Below are positions 11,679 to 49,321 of a stretch of DNA of 64,000 bases, piece by piece. The DNA is from Polaribacter porphyrae (GTDB lineage: Bacteria; Bacteroidota; Bacteroidia; Flavobacteriales; Flavobacteriaceae). The notes below the pieces were generated by a model. It was not told the DNA's origin and ran no database searches. It saw only the letters and a list, made by a program, of their open reading frames with translations. The stretch is taken from positions 897,600-961,599 of the forward strand of contig NZ_MSCN01000001.1 in the NCBI RefSeq assembly GCF_002954685.1. The letters are read 5' to 3'. The translations under genes were made by a program, and so were the position numbers. Position 1 is the stretch's first letter. Each line of letters opens with the position of its first letter.

Positions 11679-11731
11679 GATTAAAGTTGATAGCTGATTG
11701 GTTCTTTTTTATAAAAAGTGAATATTTACTT

Positions 11732-12046
11732 TTATTGATTCATAAACTCTTTAATTTTTCTTTCTTCCCAATTTTTACCAAATCCAAGAATATTAAAACT
11801 AAAAGTATTAAAAGCATCTAGGGCTAAAAATATTCCCCAAATAAACCAAATAGGAATATGAGAAAAACCATCATTATCAAAATGATTACTTATAACAAAA
11901 TCATCAAAAATTTTAAATGAAAACTTCCATACAAAAGTTATGAATAAATTTACTAAAACGTAAGTAACCAAATGTTTGTAAAATTCTTTAATTTTTTCAA
12001 CCTTTAGTTTAGCTATTTCTAATTTTTTATCTTCAAATTTTTCCAT
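11732..12046 (-). CDS. 2TM-domain protein, copy 1
   Basis: 104 residues made almost entirely of one 2TM domain: a basic amphipathic N-terminal helix (KLKVEKIKEFYKHL), two membrane helices (VTYVLVNLFITFVWKF and IPIWFIWGIFLALDAF), and the conserved tail GKNWEERKIKEFMNQ. It is the most downstream of four tandem 2TM genes. The function of the domain is unknown; it is common in Bacteroidota, often beside LytTR systems. The gene starts three bases after the preceding copy's stop, which indicates co-transcription. Confidence 0.85.
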   Translation of the reverse strand: MEKFEDKKLEIAKLKVEKIKEFYKHLVTYVLVNLFITFVWKFSFKIFDDFVISNHFDNDGFSHIPIWFIWGIFLALDAFNTFSFNILGFGKNWEERKIKEFMNQ

Positions 12047-12049
12047 TCT

Positions 12050-12385
12050 TTAAAAATTTTTAGTTCGATTTTTATCTTTCTCCATCATTTCCTTTATTTT
12101 TCTCTCTTCCCATTCACTCCCAAAGCCAATTGATTTGAATCCAAAAACACCCAACCAATGAAAGAACATTCCAATTCCCCAAAAAACCCAAGTAGAATAG
12201 ACACCAAAGTTAGATAGTGCATCAGAAAAAGAATCATCACTTTGCATTAATCCAAAAATAATTACACCACTTATAAATATGTTTACTATTATGTATACAA
12301 TTAAGTGAACATAAAAGCCTTTAATATCTTTTACTCTTTTTTTAGCTCTTATATAGTTTTGTTCTTGCTTATAATCTTGTTGCAT
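12050..12385 (-). CDS. 2TM-domain protein, copy 2
   Basis: 111 residues. The pattern is the same as its neighbours: YIRAKKRVKDIKGFYVHL, helix LIVYIIVNIFISGVIIFG, a polar loop (QSDDSFSDALSNFG), helix WVFWGIGMFFHWLGVFGF, and the tail GSEWEERKIKEMMEKDK. The FHWLGVFGF segment is shared almost exactly with copy 3, so these two are the closest relatives. It lies four bases downstream of copy 3, in the kinase operon. Confidence 0.85.
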   Translation of the reverse strand: MQQDYKQEQNYIRAKKRVKDIKGFYVHLIVYIIVNIFISGVIIFGLMQSDDSFSDALSNFGVYSTWVFWGIGMFFHWLGVFGFKSIGFGSEWEERKIKEMMEKDKNRTKNF

Positions 12386-12389
12386 TTTA

Positions 12390-12677
12390 TTAATTTTTCT
12401 CGTTCATAAACTCTTTTATTTTTCTTTCTTCCCAGTTTTTCCCAAATCCTAATAAATTAAAACCGAAAACTCCTAACCAGTGAAAAAATAAACCAAAGCC
12501 CCAACCAAGTACTGAAAACCAAAACCAATGAAAATGAGGCACATATTTTAAATTTATAAATATAATTATTGGTATTATTAAGCAATAGATAGTTAAATGA
12601 GTATAAAAACCCTTTATTTCTTTTACTTTTTTTTGAGCTTTATAATAACGTTGTTCTGTTAAAAAATCAGTTTCCAT
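12390..12677 (-). CDS. 2TM-domain protein, copy 3
   Basis: About 95 residues. I prefer the start at 12677, giving METDFLTEQRYYKAQKKV, because it aligns with the other copies (MEQKFTEEQKY) and lies one base past the upstream stop; the ATG at 12701 would overlap copy 4 by 23 bases. Two helices (HLTIYCLIIPIIIFINL, FWFSVLGWGFGLFFHWLGVFGF) and the tail GKNWEERKIKEFMNEKN complete the domain. The YCLIIPIIIFINLKY segment closely resembles the C-terminal 2TM domain of the histidine kinase in this operon. Confidence 0.82.
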   Translation of the reverse strand: METDFLTEQRYYKAQKKVKEIKGFYTHLTIYCLIIPIIIFINLKYVPHFHWFWFSVLGWGFGLFFHWLGVFGFNLLGFGKNWEERKIKEFMNEKN

Positions 12678-12678
12678 T

Positions 12679-13002
12679 CTATCTTCTATATTTGTCTTCA
12701 TTCATATACTCTCTTAATTTTCTTTCTTCCCAATCTTTACTTAAAATAAAGTTTAATCCAAAAGTATTTAACGCCTGAAAAGCAATTCCTATACCCCAAA
12801 ATAACCAGATTTTATAATTATGATAGTCAAAAAAAGCTTCATTAAAAGTATCTCCATCATTCATATCTCCCACTATAAAAATTGCACTTAAAAAAATATT
12901 TACAATAATATAAATAGCAAAATGTTTGTAAAACTTGCTTATTCTTTCTACTCTTTTACGAGCTAGAACATATTTCTGTTCTTCTGTAAATTTCTGTTCC
13001 AT
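12679..13002 (-). CDS. 2TM-domain protein, copy 4
   Basis: 107 residues with EEQKYVLARKRVERISKFYKH, helix IYIIVNIFLSAIFIVG, loop DMNDGDTFNEAFFDYH, helix WLFWGIGIAFQALNTFG, and tail SKDWEERKLREYMNED. Its start codon overlaps the stop of the kinase gene by one base (TAATG), which points to translational coupling. It is therefore the first separate 2TM protein made after the kinase that carries the same domain. Confidence 0.85.
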   Translation of the reverse strand: MEQKFTEEQKYVLARKRVERISKFYKHFAIYIIVNIFLSAIFIVGDMNDGDTFNEAFFDYHNYKIWLFWGIGIAFQALNTFGLNFILSKDWEERKLREYMNEDKYRR

Positions 13003-14366
13003 TATCGTAACCTTTTTTGTTTATTCTCTTTATTCATCAACTCTTTTATCTTTCTATCTTCCCAGTTTTTTCCTAAAAACACATTATAATTATTCACTTC
13101 TAAAAAGTGAAAAACTAAACCTATTCCCCATCCAAAAATTGGAAACCAAAACCAATAAAATTGTGGCGAAAATCTTAAATTAATAAATATCAAAAAAGGA
13201 ATTACTAGGCAGTAAGATGCTAAATTTTGATAAAATTCTTTCAGTTTTTCAACTCTTTCTACGGCTTTTACATAGTTGCTGTTTTCTAAATCTTCTGTGT
13301 ACATGATATTGTTCATTTTATATAAGAGAGGCAAGCTCACCTTAAAAGTTGTGTTGTTATTTTCTATTTTTACAGATCTATCTGTTATTAAACCATACCT
13401 GTCTGCAATATTTTGCAAACCTACTTTAGTGCTTTTACCTATTGCTTCTTTTGGGTTAATGTTATTTTCTATAATCAAATGATTATTCTCTTCGTAAATT
13501 GATACTACTAATGGTTTAGAGGATGAAACCACGTTATGTTTTACTGCGTTTTCTAATAATAATTGCAAGGATAAAGGCACTATTTTTAATTCTTGATTAC
13601 TTACTGCATCTGGTATGTTAAATTTAATAGCGTCTTCAAAACGCATCCCTAACAATTGCATATATGTTCTTGCAAATTTTAATTCTTCTTGAATTGGCAC
13701 TAAATCTTTATTTCTTTGCTCTAAAACATATCGATATACTTTAGAGAGTTTAGTAGTAAATTTTTCTGCTTGGTTTGGGTTTTCTCCAATTAAACTGGTC
13801 AACACATTTAAGCTATTAAACAAAAAATGTGGATCTAATTGATTTTTTAATGATTCAAACTTTGCTGTTTCTGTTTTTGCAACTATTTCTTGTTTTGTAG
13901 TTTCTTGTTTTGCAGATTTTTTCCACTCTATCATAAACTCACGTGCATGTAAAAAAGAGGAAACTGTAAAAGAGAATAATATCCAAAAAAGATGAGTCCA
14001 GATAAATTGCTGTTCAAAAAAACGTTCTTCTGGTAAACCATCAACTTTAACAAATAAAATGTAATGGATAAATATAATTGCTGGTACAGTATAGAGAACT
14101 GTAGATATTATTCCTGCCCAAACTCTTTTATTAGTCTGTGTTACCCAATCCCATTTTGCTGTAATAAAATTGTTTAATACACCTTGACCAAATGCTAAAA
14201 CAAAGGTATAAAGAGCTGTTCTTAATAACGTTTCAAAAAAACCTGAAATAGTATAATCTCTTACTAGAATAAAAAGTACAAACGATATTATTAATATTAT
14301 TCTTATAGATAAGAAAAACTCTTTTTTTATTTGTCCAGACGTTTGTACTCTATTTATACTATTCAT
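13002..14366 (-). CDS. LytS-type histidine kinase fused to a 2TM domain
   Basis: 454 residues. Four N-terminal membrane helices (about 20-37, 48-68, 84-105, 122-140) are followed by a coiled linker, the His_kinase domain with H180 in LKNQLDPHFLFNSLNVL, and an HATPase-like region with LLLENAVKHN (N box) and VGLQNIADRYG. The C-terminal 2TM domain (about 365-450; YCLVIPFLIFINLRF, GKNWEDRKIKELMNKENK) is like that of the four genes that follow. LytS-type kinases usually signal to LytTR regulators, and one ends this operon. The C-terminal membrane domain on a kinase is unusual and would anchor both ends of the catalytic core. Confidence 0.9.
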   Translation of the reverse strand: MNSINRVQTSGQIKKEFFLSIRIILIISFVLFILVRDYTISGFFETLLRTALYTFVLAFGQGVLNNFITAKWDWVTQTNKRVWAGIISTVLYTVPAIIFIHYILFVKVDGLPEERFFEQQFIWTHLFWILFSFTVSSFLHAREFMIEWKKSAKQETTKQEIVAKTETAKFESLKNQLDPHFLFNSLNVLTSLIGENPNQAEKFTTKLSKVYRYVLEQRNKDLVPIQEELKFARTYMQLLGMRFEDAIKFNIPDAVSNQELKIVPLSLQLLLENAVKHNVVSSSKPLVVSIYEENNHLIIENNINPKEAIGKSTKVGLQNIADRYGLITDRSVKIENNNTTFKVSLPLLYKMNNIMYTEDLENSNYVKAVERVEKLKEFYQNLASYCLVIPFLIFINLRFSPQFYWFWFPIFGWGIGLVFHFLEVNNYNVFLGKNWEDRKIKELMNKENKQKRLR

Positions 14367-23554: not shown

Positions 23555-23565
23555 ATCCAAATGCT

Positions 23566-23843
23566 GTCATTTTGAGCATTACTGAAATTAAAATATATTT
23601 TGATTGAAAGTTACTTACGAAGCAAAAATGGAGTCGAAAATATCACTTTTAATATTTCTCTATAAAGTTAAAGCTATAAAGAATTTCCTATGATATTTGT
23701 TAACGTAAGTTCGATATATTTTTTTATTTATAAATGTTATTATATTGAAAATTAATTGATTGTAATTTCGAACATTGCTGAAATCAAAATATACTTTGAT
23801 TGAAAGTATCTTATGAAGTAAAAGTGTAATCGAAAAATCTCAC
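23566..23843. repeat. Diverged direct repeat pair after argF'
   Basis: Copy A (23566-about 23645) and copy B (about 23761-23843) share GAGCATTACTGAAAT/GAACATTGCTGAAAT, AAAATATA, TTTGATTGAAAGT, GAAGcAAAA and TCGAAAA in the same order. Copy A begins GTCATTTTGAG like the proA-proB element. They lie between argF' and the IS982 remnant and mark the break point of the arginine operon. Confidence 0.65.
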
Positions 23844-24848: not shown

Positions 24849-25669
24849 GTTTGTTATATTTACAGATTTTTAGACAAATAATAGAAGTTAAGTTTCTAAA
24901 TTTACTATTTTATTTGCTTTTAATGTTCCTTCCAGATTTAGGTATTGTATAAATATAAAAATATGATTTTAAGTATTTAAAACTCATTAAATTCACCTTT
25001 AACAACTATTAAAATAATGCTATTTTAAGTCCAGTTTTAGATTTACTTCTTAATAAAGTAAGTTATTTTTGTTTTAATAAATATGAAAACTTTTGTACAA
25101 TTCCTTGTAATTATTTATCCAAATGCTTTAATTTTCCACTTAAGGAATGATAAACGCACTATAATTAATTCTCTTAATACTTCATTCTCTCAATAGATTT
25201 TATTTTTGTTAGCTATACATTTCTTTAGCAAATTATCCATCCGCTCATTTGGTTTATCTGTATTTACTTTGGTTAGTATTATTTGAATGAAATGCTTGAT
25301 AGATAAGTGATTTACAATTAAAAAACAAAGTCTTGATATTATAAAATTGTGCGAACTTCTAGTTTTAATAATTTGTAGCTTGCATAGCTACTAAACTATC
25401 TTTTGATAGTAATTTTTATAATGAAGTAAATACTTCTCAAAAAGGGAAATACATTTAAAAAGAAAAAATTAGATGAAGGCAAAAGATATTCTTATAAATA
25501 TGTTTTAAAAGAACTATCTTAATACAAATTTACTTCTATAAATTAGCTAAATTTAAAGTGAATAAATTATCTAATAGAAAAATTGATTTTACAGGTTAAA
25601 AAGTTAAAAAAGGATTTATAAAACTTCTCAATTATTTCCTTATTTTCGACCTCATAAAACTACCCAATA
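24849..25669. other. Gene-free, degenerate-looking stretch
   Basis: About 820 AT-rich bases between the IS982 remnant and topB, with no reading frame that I can support on either strand. Short fragments such as KRKKLDEGKRYSYKYVLKELS (around 25460-25520) look like broken coding sequence but match no family I recognise. This may be residue of the lost arginine genes or of another element. Confidence 0.5.
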
Positions 25670-28102
25670 TTGAAAGTCTGTATAGCCGAAAAACCAAGTG
25701 TTGCAAGAGAAATTGCTAACATTCTAGGAGCCAAAACAAAACGTGATGGTTTCTATGAAGGCAATGGCTATGCTGTAACCTACACTTTTGGGCATTTATG
25801 CACACTTTTAGAACCTAAAGATTACAAACCGCATTGGAAAAGTTGGGACTTGAACAATTTACCTATGTTACCAGAACGTTTTGACACGAAAGTTACAGGA
25901 GATTCAGGTATCAAAAAGCAGTTTAATATTGTGAAATCTTTATTTGAAAAAGCAGATGTGGTTATCAATTGTGGGGATGCAGGAACAGAAGGAGAATTGA
26001 TTCAAAGATGGGTCATCAACCAATGTAATTATAAAGGCGAAGTGCAACGTTTATGGATTTCCTCTTTAACAGAAGAAGCCATAAAAGACGGATTTAAGAA
26101 TTTAGAATCGTCACAAAAATATGATAATCTCTATTATGCTGGTTATTCTAGAGCCATTGGAGATTGGCTATTGGGTTTAAACGCAACTCGTTTATATACG
26201 GTTAAATTTGGTGGTTACAAACAAGTATTGTCTGTTGGAAGAGTGCAAACTCCTACTCTAGCAATGTTGGTAAATCGATATTTTGAAATCCAAAATTTTA
26301 AGCCTCAACCTTATTGGGAATTGCAAACCACCTACAGAAATACGCTATTTAATTATGAAGATGGTCGTTTTCTAAAAAAAGAAGATGGACAAGTTTTAGC
26401 AGATAAAGTTGCGCAATCTGAATTCGAAATTGTTTCTGTTATTAAAAAGAAAGGAAAAGAATACGCTCCAAAATTGTTTGATTTAACAGGATTACAAGTG
26501 TATTGCAACAATAAATTCGGGTTTTCTGCGGATGAAACTTTAAAAATGGTGCAGAAATTGTATGAAATGAAAGTAGTTACCTATCCAAGAGTGGATACTA
26601 CTTTTTTACCCAATGATTTGTATCCTAAAGTCCACGGAATTTTATCAAAACTAACTATTTATTCAGAATTAACACAACCTCTTTTAGGAAAGAAGATAAA
26701 GAAAACAAAACGTGTTTTTGATGATAAAAAAGTAACGGATCACCATGCAATAATTCCGACAGGAATTGAAGGAAATTTACAATACAATCAACAAAAGGTT
26801 TATGATATTATTACCAAACGTTTCATTGCCGTTTTTTATCCAGATTCTGATGTATCTAACACCTCTGTTATAGGTAAAGCTGCTGAAGTTCCTTTTAAAA
26901 CAACAGGAAAAGAAATCATTAATAAAGGCTGGAGAGTTGTGTTTGAAGATAAAAATGTCATTGCGAATGAAATGAAGCAATCTGAAAATAATAAAGAGAT
27001 TACTTCGTCGAAAACTCCTCGTAATGACAAGAATGTTTTACCAACTTTTGTAAAAGGTGAAAAAGGAAAACATGAACCCTCTTTTTTAGAAAAGGAAACA
27101 AAACCACCACGAAATTATACAGAAGCTTCTTTATTGAGAGCAATGGAAACTGCTGGCAAACAAGTAGATGATGATGAAATGCGTGAGTTGATGAAAGAAA
27201 ACGGAATTGGAAGACCATCAACCAGAGCAAGTATTATTGAAACTTTATTTCGAAGAAAATATATTGAGCGTAAAAAGAAACTCGTTTTACCTACACAAAC
27301 AGGAATTGATCTAATCAACATTATTGATAACGAATTATTAAAATCAGCTGAATTAACAGGTAGATGGGAAAAGCGTTTGAAAGAAATTGAAAGAGGGGAA
27401 TTCAATGCTGGAACTTTCATCAAAAACATGAAAAAAATGGTTGATGAATTGGTGTATGAAGTACGTTCTAATTCCTCTAAAAAAAGAATATCTTCAAATG
27501 TCATTGCGAATGAAATGAAACAATCTACAAATAATAAAAAGATTACTTCGTCCTCAAGTCCTCGTAAAGACAAAAAACAAGTTTCAGGAAAAACCTGTCC
27601 AAAATGTAAAAAAGGACAATTATTAAAAGGTTCTTCTGCTTTTGGCTGTTCTGAATATAAAAACAATTGTAAGTTTAAAATTCCTTTTCAATTTTTAGAG
27701 AAGAAAATTTCAGAAAATCAAATTATTAGGTTGATTGACAAAGGTTGTACTACCAATTTAAAGGGTTTTAAAATTGATGGAAAATCCACTGAAGGTTTAG
27801 TTCGTTTTGATGACAATTTTACTTTGAAATTTGAGCCGAAGCAAAATGTCATTGCGAATGAAATGAAGCAATCTAAAAGTAACAAAGAGATTACTTCGTC
27901 GCAAACTCCTCGTAAAGACAGCATAGAAAAAATTCCTTGTCCAAAATGTAAAAAAGGAACTATTCTAAAAGGAAAAACAGCTTACGGTTGTTCTGATTAT
28001 AAAAATGGATGTGATTTTATTTTCACTTTTGAAAACATCAAAAAAACAGCTAATGGTAAGCCTTTAACTAAAGAATTGGTTTTGGAGATAATATCAATGT
28101 AA
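25670..28102 (+). CDS. topB: DNA topoisomerase III with three repeat-derived inserts
   Basis: 810 residues, type IA topoisomerase that relaxes and decatenates DNA. The start is TTG at 25670 (KVCIAEKPSVAREIA matches the family N-terminus). The Toprim acidic site is NCGDAGTEGE, and the active tyrosine is Y305 in VTYPRVDTT. GIGRPSTRASIIETLFRRKYI lies in the core. Two C-terminal zinc fingers follow (CPKCKKGQLLKGSSAFGCSEYKNNC-type). Residues 430-453, 611-634 and 727-750 are each encoded by a 72-bp palindromic repeat (peptide VIANEMKQS...ITSS...PRND/KD). All three lie in linkers: before the LPTFVKGE strand, before finger 1 and before finger 2. The catalytic parts are intact, so it is probably functional. 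Confidence 0.95.
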   Translation: MKVCIAEKPSVAREIANILGAKTKRDGFYEGNGYAVTYTFGHLCTLLEPKDYKPHWKSWDLNNLPMLPERFDTKVTGDSGIKKQFNIVKSLFEKADVVINCGDAGTEGELIQRWVINQCNYKGEVQRLWISSLTEEAIKDGFKNLESSQKYDNLYYAGYSRAIGDWLLGLNATRLYTVKFGGYKQVLSVGRVQTPTLAMLVNRYFEIQNFKPQPYWELQTTYRNTLFNYEDGRFLKKEDGQVLADKVAQSEFEIVSVIKKKGKEYAPKLFDLTGLQVYCNNKFGFSADETLKMVQKLYEMKVVTYPRVDTTFLPNDLYPKVHGILSKLTIYSELTQPLLGKKIKKTKRVFDDKKVTDHHAIIPTGIEGNLQYNQQKVYDIITKRFIAVFYPDSDVSNTSVIGKAAEVPFKTTGKEIINKGWRVVFEDKNVIANEMKQSENNKEITSSKTPRNDKNVLPTFVKGEKGKHEPSFLEKETKPPRNYTEASLLRAMETAGKQVDDDEMRELMKENGIGRPSTRASIIETLFRRKYIERKKKLVLPTQTGIDLINIIDNELLKSAELTGRWEKRLKEIERGEFNAGTFIKNMKKMVDELVYEVRSNSSKKRISSNVIANEMKQSTNNKKITSSSSPRKDKKQVSGKTCPKCKKGQLLKGSSAFGCSEYKNNCKFKIPFQFLEKKISENQIIRLIDKGCTTNLKGFKIDGKSTEGLVRFDDNFTLKFEPKQNVIANEMKQSKSNKEITSSQTPRKDSIEKIPCPKCKKGTILKGKTAYGCSDYKNGCDFIFTFENIKKTANGKPLTKELVLEIISM
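26957..27028. repeat. In-frame palindromic repeat 1 in topB
   Basis: 72 bp from GTCATTGCGAATG to CTCGTAATGAC, with inverted ends (GTCATT/AATGAC) and inner AGCAATCT/AGATTACT. It adds 24 codons, residues 430-453. The first 27 bases are identical to those of the intergenic copy at 49178. Confidence 0.92.
27500..27571. repeat. In-frame palindromic repeat 2 in topB
   Basis: 72 bp of the same family, GTCATTGCGAATG to CTCGTAAAGAC, residues 611-634, just before the first C-terminal zinc finger. The final AAAGAC differs by one base from the pairing AATGAC and is shared with copy 3. Confidence 0.92.
27848..27919. repeat. In-frame palindromic repeat 3 in topB
   Basis: 72 bp of the same family, residues 727-750, between the two zinc fingers. 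It has the same phase as the others (starts 543 and 348 bases apart, both multiples of three) and shares the AAAGAC end with copy 2. Confidence 0.92.
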
Positions 28103-28104
28103 AA

Positions 28105-28437
28105 ATGAACTATTTATTACTTATTTTACTATTTATAATTGGGGTTTATGTTGAAAAACTAATTAAGAGAGTTAGAGATGATAAACTTGGTTGGAAAGTT
28201 CAGAAATTTAATAGAGACAAGATAATTTATTCGGAAAAAATAAATAACAAATGGGAAAGTATTGATATAAGAGCTGGATTTGACATAGGAACTTTTGTTG
28301 TTCATTTTGAGAATAAAACTGATTGGAAAGAATACCCTGAATGGGCTCAAGATAGAAATTTAGTTATTGAAAGAGTTCTTTTAAGATTCCCTAAAAAAAA
28401 GAACAATGAAATTGATGAAATTGGAAAAATTAAATAA
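28105..28437 (+). CDS. Small membrane-anchored hypothetical protein
   Basis: 110 residues: one N-terminal membrane helix (MNYLLLILLFIIGVYV) and a soluble domain with regular beta-type pattern (KIIYSEKINNKWESIDIRAGFDIG, VVHFENKTDWKEYPEWAQDRNLVIERVLLRF). I do not recognise the family. It starts two bases after the topB stop, so it is probably co-transcribed with topB. Composition and the open frame to a lysine-rich end make it a likely real gene. Confidence 0.6.
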   Translation: MNYLLLILLFIIGVYVEKLIKRVRDDKLGWKVQKFNRDKIIYSEKINNKWESIDIRAGFDIGTFVVHFENKTDWKEYPEWAQDRNLVIERVLLRFPKKKNNEIDEIGKIK

Positions 28438-28492
28438 TTTTAAAAAAAAAGAGAAAACGAGCTATAGAATAATACTGAATTATTTTCAAAAA

Positions 28493-28714
28493 CTAATCAA
28501 TCATATTTTTTAAGTAAAATTTTTCTACTTTTTCTCTAGCCCAAGGTGTAGTTCTCAAAAATTTTAATGAAGATTTATACGTTGTATTATTCTTAAAGGC
28601 ATTAATATTTAAAGAATACCCTAATTCTTCCCAACCATATTCTAAATACAATTCTTCTAAAATTGTGGCTAATTTAATGCCATGTAGTGAATTATTAGGT
28701 TGTTCTTTGCTCAT
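28493..28714 (-). CDS. VF530-like (DUF2132) small DNA-binding protein
   Basis: 73 residues from ATG 28714 ([19 protein letters not shown]). The upstream in-frame extension to 28789 overlaps the peptidase gene and has no homology pattern. The [31 protein letters not shown] and [21 protein letters not shown] segments match the VF530/DUF2132 family, small helical proteins with a structure suggesting DNA binding. It lies 34 bases downstream of the M1 peptidase gene on the same strand. Confidence 0.8.
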
Positions 28715-36475: not shown

Positions 36476-36555
36476 GTCATTGCGAAGTAAAATGGAATTT
36501 TACTGTGGCAATCTCCTTTTCTGTAAAGAGATTACTTCATTCCATTCGTAATGAC
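36476..36555. repeat. Palindromic repeat before serC
   Basis: 80 bp, GTCATTGCGAAG to TTCGTAATGAC, with inner GGCAATCTC and AGAGATTACTTC. Same family as the repeats inside topB and at 49178. It occupies most of the gap between the reductase and serC. Confidence 0.88.
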
Positions 36556-49130: not shown

Positions 49131-49321
49131 GCGTTAGGGATTGAAACGACATCCTTTTTTATTGCTTTTAAATTAGCGTCATTGCGAATGAAATGAAGCA
49201 ATCTTTTTCTAAATAGAGATTGCCACAGTTTACTTGAGGTAAACTTCGCAATGACACCAAAAAAAGATATAGTGTAAAGCCCGACTTTGGTCCTGAATGC
49301 CTTCAGGATAAAGGAACGCCC
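49131..49321 (-). ncRNA. Structured flavobacterial intergenic element
   Basis: Read on the minus strand: GGGCGTTCC, hairpin TCCTGAA-GGCA-TTCAGGA (49307-49291 region), GTCGGGCTTTACACTATATC, a T run, an insert, an A run, GGATGTCGTTTCAATCCC and TAACGC at the 3' end. The T and A runs can pair, as can the outer GCGTT and AACGC. This order of blocks recurs between genes in many Flavobacteriia and may be the Flavo-1 RNA motif (from memory, not verified). It starts 6 bases after the rtcB stop and ends just before the SPFH fragment. The insert is the palindrome at 49178-49255. Confidence 0.5.
49178..49255. repeat. Palindromic repeat nested in structured element
   Basis: 78 bp, GTCATTGCGAATG to TTCGCAATGAC, with AGCAATCT/AGATTGC and GTTTAC/GTAAAC pairs; the most perfect copy of the family in this window. 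It lies exactly between the T-run and A-run arms of the structured element. Confidence 0.9.

Follow-up and report, generated by a model that had tools for sequence, protein, structure and literature searches.

Rickettsia palindromic elements (RPEs) are dispersed palindromes of several families which, in the accessible parts of two reports, occur both between genes and in frame within unrelated conserved genes (PMC2229807, PMC10969869). The first of these, as far as its available text goes, also describes 107-bp Correia and 127-bp ERIC elements fused in frame with genes and cites Wolbachia palindromic repeats as likewise in-frame, non-autonomous repeats (PMC2229807). RPE-6 and RPE-4 have been equated with CGTC-1 and CGTC-4 of the CGTC-tagged REPs, a group for which the excerpted text names five phyla, Bacteroidetes among them (PMC3733652).

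Here we consider a palindromic repeat of Polaribacter porphyrae. The genome searched measures 3.90 Mb in two contigs, and the window, which is the whole stretch of DNA analyzed, covers 64,000 nucleotides of it (C1:897600-961599). Three copies of the repeat lie within one gene of the window:

25670..28102, forward strand: topB, DNA topoisomerase III, 810 aa, TTG start as listed; NF005829 and TIGR01056 both over cut-off.
26957..27028, forward strand: palindrome copy 1, VIANEMKQSENNKEITSSKTPRND, 72 bp, in the topB frame; partly gapped in comparison with E. coli topoisomerase III.
27500..27571, forward strand: palindrome copy 2, VIANEMKQSTNNKKITSSSSPRKD, 72 bp, in the topB frame; a low-confidence stretch of the structural model.
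27848..27919, forward strand: palindrome copy 3, VIANEMKQSKSNKEITSSQTPRKD, 72 bp, in the topB frame; likewise a low-confidence stretch of the model.

A first-pass annotation had proposed three 72-bp palindromes inserted into topB in one common frame, and the coordinates, a repeat finder and the 25670-28102 frame all bear this out; copies 2 and 3 are 87% and 94% like copy 1 (repeat finder, in a 78-nt register). Its description of the element as GTCATT...AATGAC fits copy 1 exactly and not copies 2 and 3, which both end in AAAGAC and have thus lost one outer-stem pair. All three copies fold as hairpins (z -2.95 to -4.68). An Rfam scan of 25500-28500 gave no match, and a known RNA family was rejected for these copies on that ground. 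Copy 2 is also covered by an antisense frame of 190 aa. Elsewhere in the window, a 79-nt segment recurs five times at intervals of about 300-340 nt and, together with a 173-nt pair, gives the impression of an array of related small genes (11726-13268), and a 76-nt repeat beginning TGTCATTTTGAG or TGTAATTTCGAA, its copies 83% alike, is perhaps another palindrome family (23565-23836).

In the 3.90-Mb genome there are 41 occurrences of the pattern GTCATTGCGA, compared to 3 when it is read backwards as a control, and BLAST with the 72-mer gives 42 matches at E up to 10; the copy number is beyond chance. Merging the two sets by hand yielded 48 sites, full or half copies, including one at 3082777 that begins GTCATTCTGA and may be a member of a sister family. 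Left out were four weak matches that on inspection had no element-like start (708404, 819715, 2509595 and 2878330) and five short, uninspected matches with E over 0.4. The palindrome is built from two unequal half units placed face to face, GTCATTGCGA...GCAATCT (about 25-40 nt) and AGATTACTTCG...CGTAATGAC; the first half unit measures 26, 27, 28, 33 or 39 nt here and ranges over 25-40 nt among the genomes of the genus sample. We call a copy genic when it lies within a long stop-free frame and non-genic when it does not, using no annotation. Counted in this way, by pattern and by BLAST, the repeat is multicopy and mostly outside long frames, which supports the first-pass interpretation. At G000:C1:356904-357776, four palindrome copies lie within 900 bp outside long frames, some of them with similar flanks. 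Two further copies are in the window:

36476..36555, forward strand: non-genic family copy, 80 nt, its first half of the longer ...TGTGGCAATCT form.
49178..49255, forward strand: non-genic family copy, 78 nt, with stop codons in the coding register.

Both had been described as the same repeat as in topB; they do belong to its family, without being 72 bp long. The first 27 nt at 49178 are identical to those of topB copies 1 and 3, as claimed.

Thirty sites meet a full-element rule, 6 of them genic and 24 non-genic. Every one of the six full genic copies is 72 nt long and open in the coding register. The full non-genic copies, as cut by script, span 63-80 nt (2025870 was cut short, and the end of 1182686 is doubtful); the length is divisible by three in 10 of the 24, and 4 of the 24 are open in the coding register, 1 of these with a length divisible by three. 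Thus, a design that tolerates translation, one of the options first suggested, is not a general property of the family.

Of the 48 sites, 10 are contained entirely in a stop-free frame of at least 100 aa, in the coding register, and three more overlap the end of a frame. Nor is topB the only gene concerned; inserts are present in seven others in this genome. Full copies (72 bp) are found in topB (three), hisA, purL and leuS, and half units (27 bp) in genes for an FAD/Fe-S oxidoreductase and a lipoyl E2 acyltransferase and in waaA and gltX. The names topB, hisA, purL, leuS and gltX pass the curated NCBIfam cut-off; the oxidoreductase, the E2 and waaA fall below it and are named by similarity.

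The likeness to RPEs to which the first-pass annotation had pointed holds for behavior: the Polaribacter repeat is dispersed, multicopy and palindromic, lies between genes and inside them, and is in frame in unrelated conserved genes (10/48 sites here and 8/116 listed in ten other genomes of the genus; see below). It departs from RPEs in length (72 bp when full, with 27-bp halves in genes, as against 105-146 bp in what was available of the RPE literature), in its host, which is of the Bacteroidota and not Rickettsia, and in the reuse of loops by different families. Like CGTC-tagged REPs, within the limits of the partial text (PMC3733652), it has a CGTC/TGTC-like start, paired small hairpins, genic copies and no dedicated transposase; in 43/48 sites GTC is preceded by T or C, so the repeat has this tag feature. 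In the same incomplete source, however, CGTC-tagged REPs have stems of 8-9 bp, loops of 4-5 nt and a CCA-like tail, whereas the Polaribacter half units pair ATTGC with GCAAT (5 bp) and, read by eye, have a loop longer than 5 nt and mostly a CT tail, which does not meet the stem, loop and tail feature. Given that neither the RPE length nor the CGTC stem, loop and tail are matched, we file the repeat as neither. As for GTAG REPs with their RAYT, no copies lie beside a REP-associated tyrosine transposase gene, so that feature is not met; the genome has two Y1_Tnp matches, each about 70 kb or more from all 48 sites, and a RAYT as mobilizer was rejected because neither is near a copy. With Correia, ERIC and Wolbachia repeats, as far as our partial source describes them, the repeat shares its non-autonomous nature and its in-frame presence in genes, with different hosts and architecture. 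It works like an RPE but has not been shown to be one, and a sequence relation is not established. What is new is the Bacteroidota host, the essential targets and the reuse of loops by different families; we found no description of in-frame palindromes in flavobacteria in the literature searched, mostly at the level of titles and abstracts and with subscription journals poorly covered.

We favor, with a probability of roughly 0.75, the explanation that these are selfish palindromes of the REP/RPE kind, which persist within a gene if one of their frames is hydrophilic and the site is a permissive loop. The reading register is central here. All 10 genic sites of P. porphyrae use one sense-strand register (...KQS...ITSS..PRND). 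A genus pattern, GTCATTGCGAN{6,24}GCAATCT, matches in 20/30 genomes, P. porphyrae included, and at least 116 sites were classified outside it, in ten of the 19 other genomes with a match. Deep inside long frames lie 8 of the 116 listed, and all 8 are in sense orientation and in the register seen in P. porphyrae: two in type I restriction methylase-like genes, one in hemW, one each in menD of two genomes, one at topB site 2, one in a ComEA-like gene and one in an unnamed 278-aa frame (the second menD and topB were named by likeness, without a profile scan). The menD loci (L251 and L279) differ in that one species has a full unit where the other, at nearly the same position, has only a half unit.

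Pooled, 18/18 genic copies, at about 16 distinct positions, are in one register, for which a free choice among three open frames gives a chance of about 2e-8; this value is rough, as openness varies between copies and related species share history. Three of the 18 are 25-nt half units reading SLRGTKQS, and the 27-nt units read V/I-I-x-x-x-x-KQS. That half units of different start phase nevertheless keep a constant KQS register points to selection on the peptide, and we read the register as the outcome of such selection after insertion. When four full coding copies were translated in six frames, the frame used was more hydrophilic than any other open frame (GRAVY -0.74 to -1.51, compared to -0.47 to +1.43 for the others); in the half units tested it was not, which counts against selection of the hydrophilic frame. 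The 11 copies near frame ends also tell against a single register: they give 13 rows, of which 8 are antisense, 3 are sense but in a different register and 2 follow the usual one. Ten of the 13 are at the N-terminal side, and all were excluded from the register count because the true start may lie downstream. Same-register tallies of 24/24 and 8/8 include loci from protein searches and are not unbiased. The genic shares, 10/48 and 8/116, are far below those expected from random landing if about 85% of the genome is coding, a fraction that we assume.

One can also envision that the genic copies act as hairpins in mRNA or DNA, affecting stability, pausing or supercoiling, with translation incidental. 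The six full coding copies do still fold (z -2.78 to -7.54), but such a role would not predict a fixed reading register, half copies persist in four genes without a second arm, and the topB region lacks an Rfam match, as noted above. We consider this very improbable.

Survival of the palindromes in permissive loops also leads one to ask where the inserts sit in the proteins. All the topB inserts had been placed in linkers; this is supported by the structural model for copies 2 and 3 and, for copy 1, by a partly gapped alignment and not by the model. The AlphaFold model of TopB is poor overall (mean pLDDT 48.8, pTM 0.28) and usable only for parts of the C-terminal region, where residues 587-635 and 726-752, containing copies 2 and 3, have pLDDT under 50 beside better-modeled stretches. 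Insert 1 lies between GWR and LP motifs, in a region partly gapped in the alignment with E. coli topoisomerase III; inserts 2 and 3 are outside that alignment and adjoin better-modeled C-terminal domains, which we read, from their CxxC motifs alone, as putatively zinc-finger-like. The LeuS insert occupies an unaligned stretch (300-326) directly before the editing domain. For TopB copy 1, HisA, LeuS and GltX, homologues of solved structure have all or most of the insert missing. Alignment blocks are consistent with 9 added residues in GltX and 24 in HisA, and solved homologues are shorter by about as much; the waaA half unit displaces some native residues and is not a clean addition.

In topB homologues, a rough motif count found the KQS/ITSS type at sites 1, 2 and 3 in 3, 13 and 18 of 64 relatives, the EKS type in 5, 19 and 9, and neither in 56, 32 and 37. 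The count used 64/80 homologues; one, L149, has an internal stop, and some motif hits are false positives (among them L168 and L183 for site 3 and L188 for site 2). The inserts are thus absent from many homologues, and neither finding that would have refuted the original proposal, segments shared by all homologues or a single-copy repeat, was made. These distributions bear on whether the inserts are adaptive, that is, kept because flexible hydrophilic linkers improve the host proteins. Their location in loops or linkers would suit this, as would the presence of topB copy 1 in the near relative L191 as well, but many homologues do without them, and the inserts vary from one related species to another. 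We give the idea hardly any credence.

The same loops were also compared across 11 relatives (L191, the nearest, is not among them). Relatives are mostly empty or differently filled at the hisA, purL, waaA, leuS, gltX and oxidoreductase sites; for gltX, the anchored loop comparison omits 5/11 relatives and the P. porphyrae sequence, and other alignments were used. The hisA loop is empty in 6/11 relatives, and the other 5 hold inserts of five kinds (VISTEAEKS, VISSAVEKS, CHSEQSEES, CHVEPVETS or RAQSR type). A single ancestral insert that diverged is not favored, since the hisA-loop inserts resemble different repeat types, although it is not formally excluded. The purL, oxidoreductase, waaA and leuS loops each hold more than one family; in waaA, the KQS-family half unit found in P. 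porphyrae recurs in L142, a VISSAVEKS unit is present in L145, and L140 has a related sequence in another register.

The EKS family, GTCATTTCGA, was counted 53 times, each in its own context, among the loci examined, compared to 5 times for the reversed control, with 22/53 copies in long frames; the loci were chosen around genes, so these proportions mean little. Among the 45 of 53 listed, the half unit ending GAGAAATCT, where it is in a long frame, is mostly translated forward as VISSAVEKS and its partner in reverse as ISPQGRND, a layout like that of VIANEMKQS...ITSSxxPRND. Exceptions are RDFSTVLEMT in L134, VISNLSTSL in L149 and, in L181, a second open frame reading LSFRPCGEIL. Sister families also use other registers (LSFQAQPRN, LSPRAQSRG and CHSEQSEES), which counts against a one-register rule.

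Reuse of loops by different families, with five kinds at hisA, is more concentrated than one would expect of plain random insertion, although how many loops can tolerate an insert is not known. A directed process would mean that certain loops or existing palindromes are recognized, by the elements themselves or by an enzyme, as places for insertion or exchange, and different families would then return to one loop. The loops with several families, the GTCATT...AATCT ends common to the KQS and EKS families and the presence of DUF559 domains in the leuS insert loop (see below) are in keeping with this. However, no common target sequence was seen (by eye only), and searches for Y1_Tnp and PF04480 (DUF559) found no mobilizing enzyme in P. 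porphyrae, with PF04480 absent and the two Y1_Tnp matches remote from the copies. We regard a directed process as unlikely, without dismissing it.

In 7/11 relatives (L342, L344-L347, L349 and L350), the leuS insert loop contains a DUF559-like domain, which in three relatives lies, by eye, between inverted TCCTATCCC...-type repeats. Across the genus sample, DUF559 is found in 23/30 genomes, and 32/35 matches are in frames over 800 aa. By sequence motifs, 30 such loci (L381-L410) comprise 16 LeuS, 11 RecG and 3 that are neither; scans of one RecG and one LeuS confirmed DUF559 inside, and a scan identified one of the three others as MetH, with DUF559 between B12-binding domains. In 13/60 DUF559 loci, the best flanking inverted repeat beats all 100 shuffles. 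Embedded or free-standing DUF559 flanked by inverted, mostly C/G-rich palindromic repeats was observed at L384, L386, L394, L443, L447, L459 and others. In the family sample, DUF559 occurs in 88/199 genomes, often as a free-standing gene. Since P. porphyrae has no PF04480 match by profile search, such a nuclease cannot now move the repeat there, and DUF559 is ruled out as its present mobilizer. No paper linking DUF559 with an inverted repeat and insertion was found in the literature searched. It is tempting, if speculative and improbable, to imagine a flavobacterial in-frame insertion system in which palindrome families and inverted-repeat-flanked DUF559 (Vsr-like) cassettes invade or exchange at shared permissive loops (leuS, recG, metH, hisA, purL and topB) without splicing, such a nuclease driving movement and the small palindromes being passengers.

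Beyond the genus, a peptide profile (E up to 0.01) has matches in 19/395 genomes of the phylum, in 16/170 genera. Sixteen of these genomes are outside the genus, 4 with a frame over 400 aa (G201, G245, G394 and G418) and 12 with short frames only; G394 and G418 score weakly and were not confirmed on reading. The clear in-gene cases are G201 and G047, genomes of other genera whose purL site is filled by the KQS palindrome family, G051 and the more distant G245. These cases come from peptide searches and say nothing on register.

Returning to selfish palindromes that survive in permissive loops, we observe a multicopy repeat, mostly outside long frames, whose genic units (72-bp full or 27-bp half) are absent from many orthologues; the remaining steps are inferred. 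We imagine that a dispersed REP-like palindrome spreads by an unidentified mechanism, its movement not having been observed, that it inserts roughly at random, and that most genic insertions are purged. The survivors would be those placed in a loop or linker without shifting the frame, in the register giving the hydrophilic VIANExKQS...EITSSxxPRND, and those loops may take up other palindrome families for like reasons. TopB would remain functional with three near-neutral linker extensions, its enzyme function being inferred from conservation only.

In the literature consulted, part of which was available only as excerpts, it is mainly in Rickettsia that palindromes translated in conserved genes are discussed. 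With its many sequenced species, in which one loop may be filled, empty or differently filled, the present genus allows comparative genomics and simple genetics to test random insertion plus selection against a directed process. The inserts also provide natural examples of positions for peptide insertion in HisA, LeuS, GltX, PurL and TopB.
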